Assembly: GCA_026129685.1 (NCBI GenBank)
Contig: JAHCHO010000005.1
Location: 1 to 64,000, forward strand
Direction of reading: 5' to 3'
Length of the DNA: 64,000 nt
Source of the DNA: Fimbriimonadaceae bacterium
Lineage (GTDB): Bacteria; Armatimonadota; Fimbriimonadia; Fimbriimonadales; Fimbriimonadaceae
The notes under the pieces are model-generated. The model did no database searches and was not told the origin of the DNA. It saw nothing but the letters and a program-made list of their open reading frames with translations. The translations under genes and the position numbers were made by a program. Shown one piece after another: positions 39,536 through 48,694 of the stretch; positions within the stretch are counted from its first letter, which is position 1, and each line of letters starts with the position of its first letter.

Positions 39536-39611
39536 GGGGATGTAGCTCAGCTGGGAGAGCGCTGCAATCGCACTGCAGAGGTCGTGGGTTCGAATCCCAT
39601 CATCTCCACCA
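39536..39611 (+). tRNA. tRNA-Ala (anticodon CGC)
   Basis: A complete cloverleaf with encoded CCA. The acceptor arm GGGGATG/CATCTCC has one G-U pair, the D arm contains AGCTCAGCTGGGAGAGC, and the anticodon stem CTGCA/TGCAG encloses loop ATCGCAC, giving anticodon CGC (reads GCG). The T arm GTGGG-TTCGAAT-CCCAT is normal and the discriminator base is A. A recombinase remnant begins about 50 nt downstream. Confidence 0.95.
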
Positions 39612-39914: not shown

Positions 39915-40385
39915 TCAGCCCAGGCAGGCGAGGAGTTCGTCGAGTTGGTCGAGCACCTCGGGCATGGCGCCGGTGGATCCGGTGTCGACCGCTTCCTTCG
40001 AGGGATAGCGATCGTGAACGACCAAGCGCGTTTTGCCCTCGATCTCCTCGAAGGTCACGGTGGTGACGGTCTGGCCGGCGTCGCCTTCGTCGTTGGTCCA
40101 GACGAGGCGCGAGGGCGGGGTCACCTCGCGGTACGTGCCGAAGAACTCCATCGTCGAACCTTCGTGGAGGAACGCCAACCGGTACTGCCCGCCAACACGG
40201 ACGTCCATGTCGCAGGCGACCAGGTTCAGCCCGTACGACTTGGGCACCCACCATTGCCTGAACAGGTCTGCCTTGGTCCACGCCTCGAACACGAGGCGGG
40301 CGGGGGCGTCGACGGTGCGGGTCACGACGAGTTCGAGTTCGGAAATCCGCTCTACCTTGGTCTCATTGCCTTTGCGAACGTTCAT
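39915..40385 (-). CDS. SRPBCC/AHSA1-domain protein
   Basis: The 156-residue protein has the START-like AHSA1 fold: LVVTRTVDAPARLVFEAWTKADLFRQWWVPKSYG, GGQYRLAFLHEGSTMEFFGTYREVTPPSRLVWTNDEGD, TTVTFEEIEGKTRLVVHDRY. Such proteins bind hydrophobic ligands and are commonly encoded directly after an ArsR repressor. Its ATG overlaps the ArsR stop by 4 nt (ATGA), so the pair is one translational unit. The ligand is unknown. Confidence 0.9.
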   Translation of the reverse strand: MNVRKGNETKVERISELELVVTRTVDAPARLVFEAWTKADLFRQWWVPKSYGLNLVACDMDVRVGGQYRLAFLHEGSTMEFFGTYREVTPPSRLVWTNDEGDAGQTVTTVTFEEIEGKTRLVVHDRYPSKEAVDTGSTGAMPEVLDQLDELLACLG

Positions 40386-40726
40386 CTGCTCTGCTCCTTC
40401 CGGTTCAGTTCTGCGACGACCGCGTCCAGCTGGTCGAAGCGGGCGGCCCAGACCTGGCGATACGCCTCGATCCAAGCCGCCTCTTCCTCCAGTCCGCGCC
40501 GCCCGAGGGTGCAGGTCCGCACGCGCCCGATCTTCTCGGTGCGAACGAGCCCCGCTTGCTCCAGGACGCCGACGTGTTTCCTCATGCCCGTGAGGGTCAT
40601 GTGGAAGCTCTCGGCAAGGGTGGTGATCGAAGCGTCCGCCCGCCCGAGTTGCTCCAGAACGCCGCGCCGGGTGGCGTCCGCGAGAGCGCCGAAGGAGGCG
40701 TCGAAGGGCACTTGATACTGAACCAT
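40382..40726 (-). CDS. ArsR-family winged-helix repressor
   Basis: The 114-residue protein has the ArsR helix-turn-helix (FGALADATRRGVLEQLGRADASITTLAESFHMTLTGMRKHVGVLEQAGLVRTEKIGR) and a short basic C-terminal helix. It lacks the metal-binding cysteines of ArsR/SmtB, as expected for the SRPBCC-linked branch. The start ATG 40726 lies within a perfect inverted repeat that also contains the -10, so it almost certainly represses itself and the SRPBCC gene. TATACT stands 7 nt before the ATG. Confidence 0.92.
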   Translation of the reverse strand: MVQYQVPFDASFGALADATRRGVLEQLGRADASITTLAESFHMTLTGMRKHVGVLEQAGLVRTEKIGRVRTCTLGRRGLEEEAAWIEAYRQVWAARFDQLDAVVAELNRKEQSR

Positions 40727-40739
40727 ACGGTTCAGTATA
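40715..40739 (-). promoter_or_regulatory. ArsR operator overlapping -10 and start codon
   Basis: ATACTGAACC (40715-40724) and GGTTCAGTAT (40729-40738) are a perfect 10-bp inverted repeat with a 4-nt centre. On the minus strand the repeat contains most of the -10 TATACT (40739-40734), the 7-nt spacer, the ATG (40726-40724) and the first codons. Binding would shut both transcription and leaderless translation initiation. Confidence 0.75.
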
Positions 40740-40894
40740 GCCCATGCTAGACGCCAATGCAAGGGGATGGTCGAAGGTTTTTCGCGTTGCCGCGACGATC
40801 CGCCCGGTCGGAGGGACACGGTGTTCATCGCTGCTCCGGTCCGAACGCGACCCTGACGGGAGGGGGCGGGGGCACGGTGCGGCCATCGCCACGG

Positions 40895-41017
40895 CTACTT
40901 TCGGCGGTACACGCGGCGGTAGCCGTCGCCCCGGGAGCGGTCGTCCACCAGGGATCCATCCGATGCCACTTCGAGGACCGCGTCCTGCTGGAGGGCTTCC
41001 CGGACCGGGGTTCCCAT
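40895..41017 (-). CDS. Possible 40-residue protein
   Basis: An ATG-started frame of 40 codons (MGTPVREALQQDAVLEVASD... ending GYRRVYRRK) lies in the otherwise empty 300-nt gap between the ArsR promoter and the truncated DUF4838 gene. Third positions are about 84% G or C, like true genes here, and the sequence is charged with a basic end. No family is recognised and no clear promoter is seen. It may be a small regulator, or a remnant of a larger gene. Confidence 0.35.
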   Translation of the reverse strand: MGTPVREALQQDAVLEVASDGSLVDDRSRGDGYRRVYRRK

Positions 41018-41027
41018 CGTGCGGGTG

Positions 41028-41302
41028 GGCTAACATGGGCCATGCGATGGGGTATGCCGATCCTCGTGTGCGCGATCCCTCTCTCCGCGCTTGGGCAGGT
41101 GACGGTGACGAAGGCGCGGCCACCGGTGATCGTCACCGGGCCGAACCCGACGGCCCAGGAGAGCCTGGCCGCCAACGAACTCGCCAAGCATCTCGGCGCG
41201 ATGCTGGATCGGGTGATCGTCCCGCATCGGGAGGCGAACCCCGGCGAGGGCCGCATCGTGGTCGGCCTGGCCTCGACGTGGGCGCCGGAGGCCAAACTCG
41301 GC
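41028..41302 (+). repeat. Diverged direct repeat, copy 1 (copy 2 at 43782-44058)
   Basis: The repeat spans the promoter (GGGCTAACATGGGCC versus GGGCTAAGATGGGCC) and the 5' end of the DUF4838 genes. Differences are mostly at third codon positions, so the copies diverged as functioning genes before one was truncated. The units lie 2.75 kb apart in the same orientation. Confidence 0.75.
41042..41302 (+). pseudogene. Truncated DUF4838 paralogue (first 87 codons)
   Basis: The ATG, signal peptide (MRWGMPILVCAIPLSALGQ) and first 87 codons match the intact gene at 43796 with roughly 85% nucleotide identity, including the leaderless promoter (TAACAT, five bases, ATG). After CTCGGC at 41302 the match stops and sequence of lower GC begins. 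The frame stays open to a stop at 41417-41419, so a 125-residue exported hybrid peptide could be made, but the carbohydrate-binding and catalytic parts of the family are gone. Confidence 0.8.
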
Positions 41303-41973
41303 TCTCGTCTAACATCGAAAACCCTGTCGCCAGAAAGAACCACCTCGATGCGCTCAACGCTTTTAAGGAATACTGCAGCACGCTCCGCTGCACTTGAGAT
41401 GTCTTCCGCAATGCCCTGAATGTTCGAAACATCCGGTGGAGGCATCTCGAGACCAAGCCTGAGTTCAGAGTTCGGATCTAACGCCCAAGGGAGCAGAAAT
41501 TGCGTTCCGGGAAGACCGTCCGCCTTGCAACTTGGGCAACCCGGACAAATGTTAATCCTCCGATTGACCTCATCGAGTCGCCAATGTCGCCCCGCCGAAA
41601 CCAGCTCCGGATTATCCGTGACTTGGTACACCGAAACGAATCCGACACCAAATGCACCAGTGGTTTCTGCCTCGTGCCGCTTATCGCCGGTCGCAAGCTC
41701 CTTGAATCGGTGAAAGTCGCAGTAGTGACCTTTCTGCGCCTTGAAGCTACAGGTCTTTGCCTCCGGGTCATCGCAGGCCCTAAATGATCCGCTGTTGCTG
41801 ACGATCAGTCCCGTTTCCGAGACGGTGAACTGGACTGACTTAGCCTCCGCGTCGTCGGCATTCTGAATCAGCTCAAAGGCAAGCGCATCAAATCCAACCA
41901 GGCCACGTAACAGTGCCTGTAGGTATCCGAGGTGATTGTAATCCCTCTCTATTGATCGGCTGGACTCGAACAT
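41303..41973 (-). pseudogene. N-terminal fragment of a sacsin-like GHKL ATPase
   Basis: Read from ATG 41973 on the minus strand, about 223 residues belong to a sacsin/Hsp90-type ATP-binding domain: the N-box FELIQNADDAEAKSVQF, LIVSNSG as the G1-like box and TTGAFGVGFVSVYQVTDNPEL as the G2 lid. Unusual cysteine and histidine clusters follow the G1 box (RACDDPEAKTC...GHYCDFH) and recur as CPGCPSCKADG, suggesting a metal site. Bacterial proteins of this group often exceed 1000 residues, so most of the gene is missing. Its sense strand runs into the antisense of the truncated DUF4838 gene at 41302. GC is lower than in the flanks. Confidence 0.75.
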
Positions 41974-42204
41974 CAAGAATCTGGATCATTATGAGGCGAA
42001 ACGAGGCCTTTGATCTTAAATCAACTTAGACGTGTCGACGTGGGCTGTGCGAGAGTCAGGATTCAGACTCAACACGCCTTTCCGGCCCAATTCTGTGTGA
42101 GGGCGTGGGATAAAGCGCGGAAGTTGATGTGTGCACCGTGGATTCAGCCAGGAGTTCTAAGCGCGTCCACCAATCTCCACCAACTGACGGCCCGCGACAC
42201 AAGT
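41974..42204. other. Lower-GC intergenic stretch, no gene seen
   Basis: This 231-nt stretch lies between the ATPase fragment and the coiled-coil protein gene. CATAAT stands 14 nt before the ATPase ATG as a possible -10 on the minus strand. The right border of the foreign segment is probably within 42000-42180, where composition returns to the local norm. No hairpin or repeat stands out. Confidence 0.4.
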
Positions 42205-43680
42205 TCAGCGCTTGGCCAGCACCGTCACCGTAAACGAGGCGACCTCGAAGCCGTTCATATCGTCGTCGAACAGACGGACGTCGTAGCGACCGGGCCTTTC
42301 GATCCCCACCAGCTTGACCCGACCCGAGGTGCGGCCGCGCAAGTGCTGGAACGACAAATCCACTTTGTCGGCGACGGCTTCGGAGCCGTGGGGCGTTTCG
42401 CTCGGCACAAGCCCGACCCAGGCGGTCTTCGAATACTCGGCCGGCGCCGCGAAGTCCACGACGATCGCCTCGCCAAGGGTGACCGTCGGGGTGAGGACCG
42501 CGATGGTCCCGTCGGGCGCCTCGCGGGCGTTGACGGCCGCCATAGAGCGGACGGCGCCCACGGAGTCGGATTCGAACTGCGCCTTGTACGCGCGCAAGGC
42601 CTGACCCCAGGTCAGCTTTTGGTCGACCGGTGGAACGCGCGTACTGGAGGGTTCCCCGAGAAGGCGGTATCTCAGGGCCAGGAACCGTTTGCGGACCGTT
42701 TCGGCCCGCGCCAAGAGCTTCTCGGCGGCAATCTGTCGGTCGTACAGCTTCTCCTTTTCGGCGGCGGCGGCCTGAAGCGGCTTGCCCTCGGCCCCAATGA
42801 CCTGGTCCAACTCGCGGGCGCGATCCAGCAGTTCGCGGCGCTGGAGCTTGGCGACCTCGAGGCCGAGCTTACCGAACAACTGGGCGAGGTTCGCGAAGCC
42901 GAGCCGGCGCATCTCGGACACCTTCTTGGCGTCCATGGGAACGCGTCCCGCCATCATTTCGCGCTGGAGCAGGTTCGCCTCGCCGAACGCGAGGGCGAGG
43001 TTCTTCGCGTCCGACGCCATCGACTTGGCGGCCAGCAATTGGACGCCGCAGTTCTTCAGCTCTTCGTCCCAGGACTTGAGCTGTCCCCACCGGACCTCGC
43101 CGTTCGAGGCCAGTTCGCTTGTCGTGTCGATCCGCGAGTACATCCCGAGCGCCCCTTCGACCACGACGTCGGCTCGGTTGAACGCCTCGAATCCGGCGTA
43201 GATCGGACAACGAGCACCGAGGGTCGCTTCCAGCCTTGGGTCGGCAAGGGCGGCTCGGTACCAGTCCACGACGCTGATGAGGTCGAAGGCGGCGTTCGCG
43301 ATACTGATGTACTTCTGCTGGAGTTCGAGCGCGGACTTCATCTTGGCGAAGTCCCGTTGCTTGCGCGAGTACTCGTCGAGCAGGTTCGAGTAATGGCGAT
43401 CCACGTCGATCGCGGCGATCTTCAGGAAGTAGGCGGTGCCGGCCAGGGCCTGCACGATCTTCCCCAGTTTCGCCTCGACCTCCCCCAATGGCCCTGGCTC
43501 GAACTGAACCCACCGCATCGCGCCGCAGAGGTCGAGCCAGAGGTCCATTTGGTCCAGCTGTCGGGCGAGCTCGACGGTCAGGTCGCGGTTGTCGGCCGGC
43601 AGAACCTGGCCGGTGGCTTTCTGGGGCAAATACGCCACCGCTATGGCGGCGCTTGCAAGGAGGGGCCGGACGGCGATCAT
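42205..43680 (-). CDS. Secreted coiled-coil protein with C-terminal beta-sandwich, unknown function
   Basis: The 491-residue protein starts with a signal peptide (MIAVRPLLASAAIAVAYLPQKATGQ). Most of it is long helices with coiled-coil periodicity (EVEAKLGKIVQALAGTAYFLKIAAI, KPLQAAAAEKEKLYDRQIAAEKLLARAETVRKRF). The last 110 residues (TVTLGEAIVVDFAAPAEYSKTAWVGLVPS...GRYDVRLFDDDMNGFEVASFTVTV) resemble SKICH-like immunoglobulin-type beta-sandwiches seen at the C-terminus of planctomycete and armatimonad exported proteins. TATAGT lies 7 nt before ATG 43680. It is divergent from the DUF4838 gene with 115 nt between. Confidence 0.7.
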   Translation of the reverse strand: MIAVRPLLASAAIAVAYLPQKATGQVLPADNRDLTVELARQLDQMDLWLDLCGAMRWVQFEPGPLGEVEAKLGKIVQALAGTAYFLKIAAIDVDRHYSNLLDEYSRKQRDFAKMKSALELQQKYISIANAAFDLISVVDWYRAALADPRLEATLGARCPIYAGFEAFNRADVVVEGALGMYSRIDTTSELASNGEVRWGQLKSWDEELKNCGVQLLAAKSMASDAKNLALAFGEANLLQREMMAGRVPMDAKKVSEMRRLGFANLAQLFGKLGLEVAKLQRRELLDRARELDQVIGAEGKPLQAAAAEKEKLYDRQIAAEKLLARAETVRKRFLALRYRLLGEPSSTRVPPVDQKLTWGQALRAYKAQFESDSVGAVRSMAAVNAREAPDGTIAVLTPTVTLGEAIVVDFAAPAEYSKTAWVGLVPSETPHGSEAVADKVDLSFQHLRGRTSGRVKLVGIERPGRYDVRLFDDDMNGFEVASFTVTVLAKR

Positions 43681-43687
43681 GTCGGTC

Positions 43688-43790
43688 ACTATACGGCAGG
43701 TCCTTCCAGAACCCAAACCGGGTTGGCCACAACACGGGTAGCCGACGGGATCCTTGGTCTTGGGCCAGTCGCGATAGGGTGGGCTAAGAT
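43688..43790. promoter_or_regulatory. Divergent pair of leaderless promoters
   Basis: On the minus strand TATAGT (43693-43688) is followed by 7 nt and ATG 43680. On the plus strand TAAGAT (43785-43790) is followed by 5 nt and ATG 43796. The 91 nt between them could hold shared regulation of the coiled-coil and DUF4838 genes. Confidence 0.6.
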
Positions 43791-43795
43791 GGGCC

Positions 43796-46048
43796 ATGCG
43801 ATGGGGTATGCCGATCCTCGTGTGCGCGATCCCTCTTTCCGCCTTGGGGCAGGTGACCGTCTCCCGAACCAAACCGCCGGTGATCGTCACCGCGCCCAAC
43901 CCGACCGCCCAGGAAAGCCTTGCCGCCAACGAACTCGCCAAGCACCTCGGCGCGATGCTGGGGGCGACGGTCGCCCCCGGGCAGGAGGCGAACCCCGGCG
44001 AGGGCCGCATCGTCGTGGGCCTGGCCTCGAAGTGGGCGCCGGAGGCCAAGCTCGGCCCGGAGGACGTGCTGATTCGCACCCGAGCGAACCGACTCTACGT
44101 GCTCGGGGGCGGGCCGAGGGGCGCGATCTACGCGGTCAACCGGCTTCTCCACCGCCAAGGGGTGCGCTGGTGGACGCCCTGGGCGACCACGATTCCCAAA
44201 AAGTCAAGGATCGAATTCAAGGACCTGAACGTCACGGAGAGCCCGCGTTTCGAGTCCCGTGACCCGTTCTGGTACCACGCCTTTGACCGCGAGTGGGCGC
44301 GAAGGAACGGATCGAACAGCATGCACGCCCGCCTCACGGAGGAGGACGGCGGCAAGATCGTCTACTCCGGGTTCGTCCACACTTTCTTCCCGTTCGTGCC
44401 GCCGGAGAAGCACTTCAAAGACCATCCGGAGTGGTACAGCATGATCGGGGGCGTCCGGAAGTGGGAGGGCGCCCAGCTTTGCACGAGCAATCCGGACATG
44501 CGCCGCGTCTTGGTCGAGGAAGTGAAGACCCGCCTTCGACAGGACCCCTCGGCCCGCATCGTCTCGGTCAGCCAAAACGACTGGTACGGCGCCTGCGAGT
44601 GCCCGTCGTGCAAGGCCCTGAGCGACGAGGAAGGCTCCCTCGCCGCGCCGGTGCTCGACCTCGCGAACTACGTGGCGGACCAGATTCGCGACGAGTTCCC
44701 GGAGGTCGCGGTGGACACGCTGGCCTACCAGTACACGCGCAAGGCGCCCAAGTCCCTGCGCCCCCGGCCCAACGTCATCGTGCGGCTCTGCAGCATCGAG
44801 TGCGATTTCTCGAAACCCCTGACCGACCCCGCGAACGCCTCGTTCGCCCAGGACATTCGGGACTGGAGCCGGCTGACGAACCGGCTGTACGTCTGGAACT
44901 ACGTCACCGACTTTCCGAACTACATGATGCCGTTCCCGAACTGGGACGTCATCGGTCCGAACCAGCGGTTCTTCGCCGAGAACGGGGTGAAGGGGCTCTT
45001 CGAGCAAGGGGCGTACCAGTCGTTCGGGGGGACGATGGCGGAAATGCACGCCTGGACCCAGGCCCAACTGCTTTGGAACCCCCATCAAGACGATCGGGCG
45101 TTGCGCAAGGAGTTCCTGAATGGCTACTACGGGGCGGCGGCGGGGCCGATCTCGGCGACCATGGACCTGCTAGCGAAGGCCGCCAAGCCCGTGCCGATGA
45201 ACATCTGGATCGGGCCGAACGCGCCGTTCTTCGATACGAAAACCGTCCTTGCCGCCGAACTCCTTTGGCAGGACGCCGAGCGCCGGGTCGCCCGACGGCC
45301 GGACCTGCTCTGGCGAGTGAGGATCGGGCACCTAGGGATTCGGTACGTGATCCTGAGCCAATGGGGGCGGTTGCGGCGCGAAGCGCCGACCCTGAAGATC
45401 GCTTGGCCGTTGCCGGAGTCGCGCAAGGCGGTGGCCGACGAGTGGATCGCGGTGGCGACGGGACCGGGTCCGGCGGGATGGTCGGCGATCACCCACATGA
45501 ACGAATCCGGCCTTACGCCGCAGAGTTGGATCGAGCGATTCGCGGTGGACCCGGCGGCGTTGCCCATTCGCCCGAAGATCTCTCCGCTTCCCGCCGACCT
45601 TGTCGTCCCGGACGGGGCGGAGGTGGTTTTGGCGCAGGACGACGAGGCCCTGCTGATCGGCGAGGGGAACTTGATCGAGTTGCGTCCCGACCCCGCCGCC
45701 AGCGACGGGCTCGCTTGCCGACTGCCGGGCGGCCATCGGGAGTGGGCGTTCCAGCTTGCCGCGCCGAAGGCGGTACGGAAGGGAACGTGGAAGGTGTACG
45801 TTCAGATTCGGGTGGAGCCTGGGGAAGCGCCCGGCGCGGTGGCCTACACGGCGGGTGTCTACAGCACGAACGCGAAGCAGGGCCTCGGCGACGTGCGCGT
45901 CACGAACGCCGACGCGGGCACGGGATACCGGACGGTGTTGCTCGCCACGACCCCGCTGACGGAGGGCTGCTACGTCTGGGCCGCCCCGGCGGACGGCGGT
46001 TCGAGGGCGGTCTGGGTGGACCGGGTGATCTTCGTGCGCGAACCGTGA
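43796..46048 (+). CDS. Secreted DUF4838 protein (GH67-like N-terminal domain)
   Basis: The 750-residue protein has a signal peptide (1-19), then an alpha-glucuronidase-like N-terminal beta domain (PPVIVTAPNPTAQESLAANELAKHLGAMLG...RIVVGLA; RLYVLGGGPRGAIYAVNRLLHRQGVRWWTPW). The DUF4838 TIM-barrel core follows (VHTFFPFVPPEKHFKDHPEWYSM, VSQNDWYGACECPSCKAL, NRLYVWNYVTDFPNYMMPFPNWDV, LFEQGAYQSFGGTMAEMHAW). Family members are exported and linked to acidic or mucin-type glycan breakdown, but the chemistry is unproven. The C-terminal 140 residues look like an added beta-sandwich. A diverged, truncated copy lies 2.75 kb upstream. Confidence 0.88.
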   Translation: MRWGMPILVCAIPLSALGQVTVSRTKPPVIVTAPNPTAQESLAANELAKHLGAMLGATVAPGQEANPGEGRIVVGLASKWAPEAKLGPEDVLIRTRANRLYVLGGGPRGAIYAVNRLLHRQGVRWWTPWATTIPKKSRIEFKDLNVTESPRFESRDPFWYHAFDREWARRNGSNSMHARLTEEDGGKIVYSGFVHTFFPFVPPEKHFKDHPEWYSMIGGVRKWEGAQLCTSNPDMRRVLVEEVKTRLRQDPSARIVSVSQNDWYGACECPSCKALSDEEGSLAAPVLDLANYVADQIRDEFPEVAVDTLAYQYTRKAPKSLRPRPNVIVRLCSIECDFSKPLTDPANASFAQDIRDWSRLTNRLYVWNYVTDFPNYMMPFPNWDVIGPNQRFFAENGVKGLFEQGAYQSFGGTMAEMHAWTQAQLLWNPHQDDRALRKEFLNGYYGAAAGPISATMDLLAKAAKPVPMNIWIGPNAPFFDTKTVLAAELLWQDAERRVARRPDLLWRVRIGHLGIRYVILSQWGRLRREAPTLKIAWPLPESRKAVADEWIAVATGPGPAGWSAITHMNESGLTPQSWIERFAVDPAALPIRPKISPLPADLVVPDGAEVVLAQDDEALLIGEGNLIELRPDPAASDGLACRLPGGHREWAFQLAAPKAVRKGTWKVYVQIRVEPGEAPGAVAYTAGVYSTNAKQGLGDVRVTNADAGTGYRTVLLATTPLTEGCYVWAAPADGGSRAVWVDRVIFVREP

Positions 46049-46061
46049 GGCCGGCGACGGC

Positions 46062-47360
46062 TCAGCGGGCGGAGCCGATCCGCCAGACCCGGACCCGGTC
46101 TCCCGGACGTCCGCCGAAAACGGGATCGATCCGAATCTGTCGCAGCGCCCCCCGGTATTCGGGATGGCCGGCGAGTCGGACCCGGTAGGTTCGTCGCTTG
46201 CCGTCGCCCACGATGGGGAAGGTCAGCCGGCGCTCGGGCGCGAATCCGGGCGCGTCGGTTCGCGACCAGAAGACCTCGGCGATCGTGTCCGACGTCCGAA
46301 ACGCCGCGTCCACTTCGAGCACCGGGGCGTCGGCGGCGCGCCAGAACGCTTCCGGCCCGATCATCTGCGGGTCCGTTCCGTCCAGGTTCACGTCGAGGTA
46401 ACCGGGAATCGGCCAGCCTTGGTCGGTCGCGTTCGCGTAGCTCCAATGCTGCCGATCCTTGCGGAACACCCACTGGGGGCGGGGTGGATTGCGCTGACGG
46501 CGGCGGACGTACGAACGAATCTCCGCCACCGATCCCACGATCAGGACGCACCGGCTCTCGTAGGCGATGTTGTGGTCGAGGATCTCGACGCGGTTCGGGG
46601 CGAGGTAACCGGTCGGCGCATCCTTCGGACCTCCGACCCCGGGCGTGCCCACAAAGCCCCCGGAAAGGGTGTAGGTGTCCGGCGCCCAAACGCCCAGTCC
46701 GTCTCCCTGGTCGTCCACCAACGCCGCCCAGGACTCGGAGGTGAAGAACGAGGTCCATGGACCGTCCTTGCCCCACTCGTGCTTGGGAATCTCGGAGGTG
46801 GGAGCGCCGGTGAACGGCGCATCCCCAACGTAGGTGATCAGGCGGTGCCAAGGCGCGTTCACGTAGACGGCGGGAAGCTCCTGCGCCCGGGCGGGATACG
46901 GCGTTGTGTCCGGGCGGCGGTTGACGAGCCGCTGGCGCAGCCGAACCGTGGGGCCGTCGAGTTCGATCCAGGACTCGAAGGTGCACTCGCCAGGGACGTT
47001 CGGTAGGGGCCAGTGCATGGGGACGCACTTGACGTACAGCTTGGTCGGCTCGACCTTGAGCGCGAGGACCTTGGACGAGTTGCCGAAGAAATCGCCGGAC
47101 TGGATCGGGTTCCAGCCGAGCCCGCGCCAGAAGGGCTCCGCCTTCTTGCCATCGGGTTCGAAGGGAACGGGGCCGGAGTAGTAGGACATCTGAATCTGGC
47201 GGCCCAGATCGTGATCGTTGACCATGTTCGGCCCGTTCTTGCGCTGCAGGAGGGTGATCGCGCCGCCCCTTTGCAGGTTCACCCCGACCCGGAGAACATC
47301 GTTCTCGATCGTCCGAATCTCGGCGAGCGAAACGGCGGCGCACAGCGCGAGTCCGACCAT
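46062..47360 (-). CDS. Secreted beta-rich protein, probably carbohydrate-related, unknown function
   Basis: The 432-residue protein has a short signal (MVGLALCAAVSLA) and begins IRTIENDVLRVGVNLQRGGAITLLQRKNGPNMVNDHDLGRQIQMSYYSGP, a layout like galactose-mutarotase-type beta-supersandwiches (early strands, then Asn/Asp-rich substrate loop). Later blocks (VYVNAPWHRLITYVGDAPFTGAPTSEIP, ESWAALVDDQGDGLGVWAPDTYTLSGGF) are well conserved-looking but I cannot name the family. It lies convergent to the DUF4838 gene, 13 nt apart. TACACT is 6 nt before ATG 47360. The larger frame upstream of that ATG is not needed. Confidence 0.65.
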   Translation of the reverse strand: MVGLALCAAVSLAEIRTIENDVLRVGVNLQRGGAITLLQRKNGPNMVNDHDLGRQIQMSYYSGPVPFEPDGKKAEPFWRGLGWNPIQSGDFFGNSSKVLALKVEPTKLYVKCVPMHWPLPNVPGECTFESWIELDGPTVRLRQRLVNRRPDTTPYPARAQELPAVYVNAPWHRLITYVGDAPFTGAPTSEIPKHEWGKDGPWTSFFTSESWAALVDDQGDGLGVWAPDTYTLSGGFVGTPGVGGPKDAPTGYLAPNRVEILDHNIAYESRCVLIVGSVAEIRSYVRRRQRNPPRPQWVFRKDRQHWSYANATDQGWPIPGYLDVNLDGTDPQMIGPEAFWRAADAPVLEVDAAFRTSDTIAEVFWSRTDAPGFAPERRLTFPIVGDGKRRTYRVRLAGHPEYRGALRQIRIDPVFGGRPGDRVRVWRIGSAR

Positions 47361-47454
47361 GCCTCCAGTGTAAACCGAATGGATCGCGGCGCCGCCGGAC
47401 GGCAAGGAGGCCATGGCCCGCCCGCCCGGCGCCCAACCAGGGTAAGCACGCGCC

Positions 47455-47949
47455 ATGCTCACGCAACCGAGGCTCGAACAGACCGGACCGTTCCGTGTTG
47501 TCGGCTGTTGGTGCGCGTTCGATGGCGAAGACGAAGGACCCGGCTGGACGGGCGCGCACGGCGCCTTCTTCCCTCGAATCGGGGAGGTGGCGGATCGCGA
47601 GGGCGACCTCGTCTTCGGATTCCTGTACCGACCGCACAAGGACCATCCGGAGGTCGCCCCCTCGGTGCGCGCCTGCTTCGTCGGCGTCGGCGTCCGGCCA
47701 GAAGCCCGCGTCCCCCCGGGGATGTGCGAATCGGCCTTTCCCGAAGGAACCTACGTGGCGGTCGAGTCCGTCGCCGACGACATGGGGGAGGCGGCCGAGG
47801 GCGTGGGCGAGGCGGTGGCCGCCTGTAACGGGTACGCGGAAGCGAACGGATGGAGAGAAGGCGACGCGTGCTTCGCCGTCGCTCACGGGGACGAGCCCAA
47901 GCCGCCTTACCGCGAGATCGTGATGATGCACCTGGTCCGTGGAACGTGA
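47455..47949 (+). CDS. GyrI-like small-molecule-binding domain protein
   Basis: The 164-residue protein with RLEQTGPFRVVGCWCAFDGE, DREGDLVFGFLYRP and EGTYVAVESVADDMGEAAEGVGEAVAACNGYAEANGW fits the GyrI/AraC effector-binding (SHV) fold. A stand-alone domain of this kind binds drugs or lipophilic compounds or hydrolyses cyclopropanated ones. TAAGCA lies 6 nt before the ATG. The AlkD-type gene follows after 49 nt but has its own -10. Confidence 0.75.
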   Translation: MLTQPRLEQTGPFRVVGCWCAFDGEDEGPGWTGAHGAFFPRIGEVADREGDLVFGFLYRPHKDHPEVAPSVRACFVGVGVRPEARVPPGMCESAFPEGTYVAVESVADDMGEAAEGVGEAVAACNGYAEANGWREGDACFAVAHGDEPKPPYREIVMMHLVRGT

Positions 47950-47998
47950 TTCACGCCGATCCGTAGCCTTGCGCGGGATGGGTTGTACAATGCCGCGC

Positions 47999-48694
47999 AT
48001 GACGCTGGCACAAGCGATGGCCGAGATCGGGGCCTTGGGCGACGAAAGAACTCGGGAGCAGAACGCCCGGCGCGGCGCGGGGCTGGCCCAGTTCGCCGGG
48101 GTTCCCGGACGCCAGGACGCCATCGGCGTCAAGCTCGGCGATCTGCGCACGTTGGCCAAGCGCATCGGCGTCAACACGGTCCTGGCGCGCGAGCTTTGGG
48201 CGACGGGCGACGTCGAGGCCATGCTGCTCGCGACGCTTCTCGCGAAGCCCAAGGAACTCACCGCCGACGAACTCGACCGGATGGTCCGCCGGGCCACCAA
48301 CGTCCAACTCGCCGACTGGCTGAACTCGTACGTGGTCAAGCTCCACCCGGAGAAGGAGGCGCTGCGTCAGGCCTGGATGACGAGCGACGACCCCGGGTGC
48401 GCCCGCGCCGCCTGGAGCCTTACCGCCGAGAAGATCGCCAAGGGCGCGGACGGCCTCGACCTGGCGGCCCTCCTCGACCGGCTCGAGGCCGAGATGGCCG
48501 ACGCCCACCTCCTGCCCCAGTGGACGATGAACTACGCGCTGGCCTTGATCGGCATCCACCACCCGCCTTACCGGGAACGAGCCCTGGCGATCGGGGAGAA
48601 GTTGGGCGTCTACCGCGACTATCCGGTCTCGAAGGGATGCACCTCGCCTTTCGCCCCGATCTGGATTGGCGAGATGGTTCGGCGCCAAGGCTAA
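47999..48694 (+). CDS. DNA alkylation repair protein, AlkD type
   Basis: The 231-residue helical protein consists of HEAT-like repeats: GVPGRQDAIGVKLGDLRTLAKRIG, VEAMLLATLLAKPKELTADELDRMVRRATNVQLADWLNSYVVK, SLTAEKIAKGADG and MNYALALIGIHHPPYRERALAIGEKLGVYRDYPVSKGC. This is the AlkD/DNA alkylation repair enzyme superfamily, which releases N3- and N7-alkylated purines without base flipping. The start at 47999 is chosen over the frame's earlier ATGs because TACAAT lies exactly 7 nt upstream of it and the family begins there. Confidence 0.85.
   Translation: MTLAQAMAEIGALGDERTREQNARRGAGLAQFAGVPGRQDAIGVKLGDLRTLAKRIGVNTVLARELWATGDVEAMLLATLLAKPKELTADELDRMVRRATNVQLADWLNSYVVKLHPEKEALRQAWMTSDDPGCARAAWSLTAEKIAKGADGLDLAALLDRLEAEMADAHLLPQWTMNYALALIGIHHPPYRERALAIGEKLGVYRDYPVSKGCTSPFAPIWIGEMVRRQG

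Follow-up and report, generated by a model that had tools for sequence, protein, structure and literature searches.

A truncated DUF4838 paralogue and the 5′ remnant of a TmtA-like gene meet at a fusion junction in a Fimbriimonadaceae genome

The window analysed here, a stretch of 64,000 nucleotides from contig JAHCHO010000005.1 of a Fimbriimonadaceae bacterium (GenBank assembly GCA_026129685.1), contains two truncated convergent genes of unrelated families, which abut at a single junction to the left of gene X and an intact DUF4838 gene (Table 1).

Table 1 Features of the junction locus (coordinates are those of the window; ".", no strand).
Feature	Position	Strand	Details
Truncated DUF4838 paralogue (pseudogene), 5′ fragment	41023..41302	+	ATG at 41042; 87 of ~750 codons kept, plus 19 bp upstream
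Fusion junction of the two truncated genes	41302..41303	.	Both homologies end within ~1 codon; GC step 0.74 to 0.52
TmtA-like sacsin/HATPase N-terminal fragment, ~223 codons	41303..41973	-	PADLOC TmtA, Pfam SACS, NCBIfam
Foreign low-GC segment (TmtA 5′ fragment and ~230 bp upstream region)	41303..42204	.	53.9% GC, lowest 902-bp window in 84 kb
Gene X, open 491-aa orphan frame, divergent from the intact DUF4838 gene	42205..43680	-	No family
Intact DUF4838 sister gene, 750 aa	43796..46048	+	Pfam DUF4838, E = 8.4e-105

Pairwise alignment, a repeat search and a genome DNA search all matched the DUF4838 stump to its sister over the same 280 bp (41023-41302 versus 43777-44056) with 86% DNA identity. 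The last bases common to both copies are CTCGGC at 41302, exactly where the preliminary description had placed the end of the match; thereafter the sister reads CCGGAGG and the window TCTCGTC. At the protein level, the stump and the N-terminus of the sister (residues 1-88) share 84% identity, but the DUF4838 domain (PF16126) occupies residues 125-452 of the sister; the stump stops earlier and carries none of it, and a Pfam scan of its 87 amino acids gave no match. Across the whole genome (3.94 Mb in 18 contigs, 99% complete, with the locus in a 393-kb contig), DNA searching returned just two DUF4838 copies, the stump and the intact gene; in the protein search, too, the hits were limited to the intact gene and to residues 1-88 in the stump.

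The two copies differ by dS ~0.38 and dN ~0.11, giving a dN/dS of ~0.28, which, with the wide error of an 87-codon comparison, suggests that constraint acted on both during most of the period after the duplication. Third positions account for 21 of the 40 differences (p = 0.01). Given this excess and the dN/dS ratio, the duplicate seems to have been mostly a constrained gene that was cut comparatively late. A stretch of 48 bp, starting 7 bp before the ATG, is identical in the two copies (41035-41082 and 43789-43836), whereas the whole block differs by ~14%; local gene conversion or a conserved leader are possible reasons.

On the minus strand, the preliminary description had recognised the N-terminal part of a sacsin-like ATPase gene with a missing 3′ end. 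Our profile searches bear this out and, in addition, identify it as a fragment of the Tiamat gene TmtA. By far the best match in the defence library was PADLOC TmtA (PDLC03969, E = 4.8e-81), covering profile positions 5-217 of 1563; Pfam SACS (E = 6.8e-20) and NCBIfam P_loop_sacsin (E = 4.2e-17) were also matched. TmtA we take, from the PADLOC naming, to be the protein of the Tiamat system. The frame starts at the ATG at 41973 and tracks full-length TmtA homologues to codon ~222-223, at the junction, where the homology is lost. The start position and the motifs fit the N-terminal sacsin/HATPase-type domain common to these proteins, and the ATP-binding motifs ELIQNADDAEA and GAFGVGFVSVYQ are intact. 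The PADLOC TmtA profiles are 1302-1782 positions long and the aligned homologues measure 1593 aa (Propionivibrio), 1618 aa (Sphingomonas plasmid), 1584 aa (Microvirga plasmid) and 1499 aa (Deinococcus plasmid), whereas the window gene, cut at codon ~223, is without the remaining 86% of the protein, including the C-terminal region. It is therefore a remnant and not a working Tiamat system, and, being truncated, would not be expected to protect against phages. A search of a paper library for the mechanism of TmtA found no papers on it, only mentions of Tiamat.

Neither stump contains a stop or a frameshift, which, together with the dN/dS of the DUF4838 copies, suggests that the breakage of both genes is fairly recent. 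Both stumps are now probably functionless, as the DUF4838 stump ends before its domain and the TmtA stump lacks ~1340 residues, among them the C-terminal region. The site is best read as a junction of two pseudogenes.

The sequence to the right of the junction was earlier described as clearly lower in GC, and the contrast is sharp. GC falls from ~70% to 54% at the very base where the DUF4838 homology ends (0.74 in the 50 bp at 41250-41299, 0.52 at 41300-41349) and regains the host level at ~42200-42300. When 902-bp windows were sampled in 50-bp steps over 84 kb, the mean GC was 66.7% (SD 2.2%) and none was as low as 41303-42204, a deviation far beyond chance. GC3 of the TmtA fragment is 0.57 versus 0.85-0.89 in the neighbouring genes. 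On the right, the border of the segment coincides with, or is close to, the stop codon of gene X (42205-42207), a gene with no Pfam match above the cut-off and only a self-hit among 85 family genomes. A repeat search around 41302 and 42204 revealed no target-site duplication or terminal inverted repeats, only the DUF4838 duplication and chance-like short imperfect matches.

The TmtA fragment has no match in either of two same-genus genomes. Its closest relatives come from a different family of the same phylum (44%), from Propionivibrio (36%) and from plasmids; beyond the 44% match, no close intact relative was found in 291 phylum genomes, and none in viral contigs. The DUF3883 domain-containing sacsin-like proteins encoded on plasmids of Sphingomonas naphthae, Microvirga and Deinococcus radiophilus, and the Propionivibrio homologue, share 32-36% identity with nearly the whole retained fragment; their genes, however, are complete (1499-1618 aa) and stand among other neighbours, frequently with a UvrD-type helicase gene close by, and none of these neighbours is left at the window locus. 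Relatives outside the genus are consistent with horizontal gain, and the TmtA gene was probably acquired in this way; together with the break in GC and GC3, they uphold the earlier view of the segment as foreign. In Pseudomonas, Tiamat is carried on genomic islands (PMC12629846).

In three hosts, a UvrD-type helicase gene was observed beside or near the TmtA-like gene (L047, 12733-14445; L109, 11860-13563; L110, 13340-14600; annotated in L109 and L110, recognised by eye in L047), and the helicase is a possible partner of this Tiamat branch. Two upstream minus-strand genes of L047 resemble, by eye, parts of a recombinase module.

The missing parts of both genes were then sought throughout the 18 contigs. 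For the 3′ part of DUF4838 (~2.0 kb) there was nothing, as no third DUF4838 stretch exists, and the TmtA profile found no further piece belonging to the fragment that could represent its missing ~4.0 kb. Apart from the fragment, this profile matched only one place in the genome, where a 1045-aa frame contains a second, distant sacsin-like ATP-binding domain (contig C12, 321796-322281; L097). The absence of both 3′ ends fits a deletion and not an inversion; the genome searches gave no sign of an inversion or translocation that had carried the other halves to a new place. A plain 0.9-kb insertion into DUF4838 is excluded, because the 3′ part of the gene lies neither beyond 42204, where gene X is unrelated, nor anywhere else.

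From these results, a history of the locus may be inferred that we consider likely: a DUF4838 duplication, then acquisition of TmtA, then one deletion that fused the two broken genes. A full-length DUF4838 duplicate would have stood here first, diverging from its sister under coding constraint. As the composition and distribution of the TmtA segment suggest, a low-GC segment with TmtA on the minus strand would then have been gained between this copy and gene X. Finally, judging from what is missing, a single deletion of ~6 kb or more would have taken away the 3′ portion of each of the two convergent genes along with all intervening sequence. The break was probably sealed by illegitimate end joining, which would have placed DUF4838 codon 87 next to TmtA codon ~223. 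The preliminary description had likewise proposed a deletion that fused both broken ends, which the absence of both 3′ parts from the genome supports. Its further step, in which a foreign piece of up to 0.9 kb takes the place of the distal 3′ portion of DUF4838, is not needed, because the 0.9 kb are the remains of a longer acquisition (a ~4.7-kb TmtA gene together with the sequence upstream of it) and both truncations follow from one deletion.

A rival reading has the two genes truncated independently, either by a duplication of only the 5′ part of DUF4838 or by capture of an already cut TmtA during break repair, with no large fusing deletion. Consistent with a captured patch, the homologous block spans no more than 280 bp and its left end is only 19 bp ahead of the ATG; the poorly conserved flanking gene order, in turn, implies frequent rearrangement. 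Constraint as suggested by the dN/dS value, even with the wide error of 87 codons, would nevertheless be unexpected for a 5′ fragment; a 5′-only duplication is disfavoured, and we regard independent truncations in general as unlikely.

Misassembly, which the preliminary description thought able to give the same picture, would mean that the contig wrongly joins two unrelated sequences at 41302. The sister gene, a diverged repeat of one side of the junction, speaks for such an artefact, but we find it very unlikely. The junction lacks an exact repeat: the copies are 86% identical, and their longest exact match, of 48 bp, is far from 41302. Since host-like sequence bounds the foreign segment on both sides, a chimera would need two false joins 0.9 kb apart within the 393-kb contig. 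Furthermore, none of the 18 contigs holds the missing gene ends, which would be expected elsewhere under a chimera of two sequences, and the estimated contamination is 0.12%. That the TmtA stump, or the 382-aa read-through fusion formed when its frame continues antisense to DUF4838 as far as a stop at 40825, is expressed and functional (a free ATPase domain would be one example) is hardly credible despite the open frame and intact ATP-binding motifs, given full-length relatives of 1499-1618 aa, the ~1340 missing residues and a new C-terminus of antisense DUF4838 sequence.

The preliminary description had also proposed looking in related genomes for an uninterrupted DUF4838 copy and a full ATPase gene. 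Neither was found at the site: the intact arrangement was not found in the relatives, nor was an empty or intact site, the junction region has no counterpart among 85 family genomes, and the two same-genus genomes are without DUF4838 and without a match to the flanking AHSA1/HTH pair. G008, a genome of a different genus in this family, preserves the order and orientation of the AHSA1/HTH pair and of the DNA alkylation repair gene, at a spacing of 7.3 kb versus 7.2 kb here, but with wholly different genes between them. By this one comparison the interval appears variable, fitting gain and loss of cargo. We hold it quite unlikely that the interval is a hotspot of turnover in the family, with repeated gain and deletion of cargo, defence genes among it, and with the Tiamat stump as the trace of one such loss. 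Window positions 39915-48694 share the conserved pair and repair gene, but none of the genes between, with 7287-16098 of L090, from a genome of another genus, and may form a variable-gene interval next to tRNA-Ala (39536-39611).

With regard to mechanism, nothing new was learned from this site, which is a case of ordinary genome decay and defence-gene turnover. It warns that a short 'ATPase' open reading frame in an annotation may be all that is left of a large defence gene, and it cleanly documents how a little-studied lineage gained and lost an anti-phage gene.
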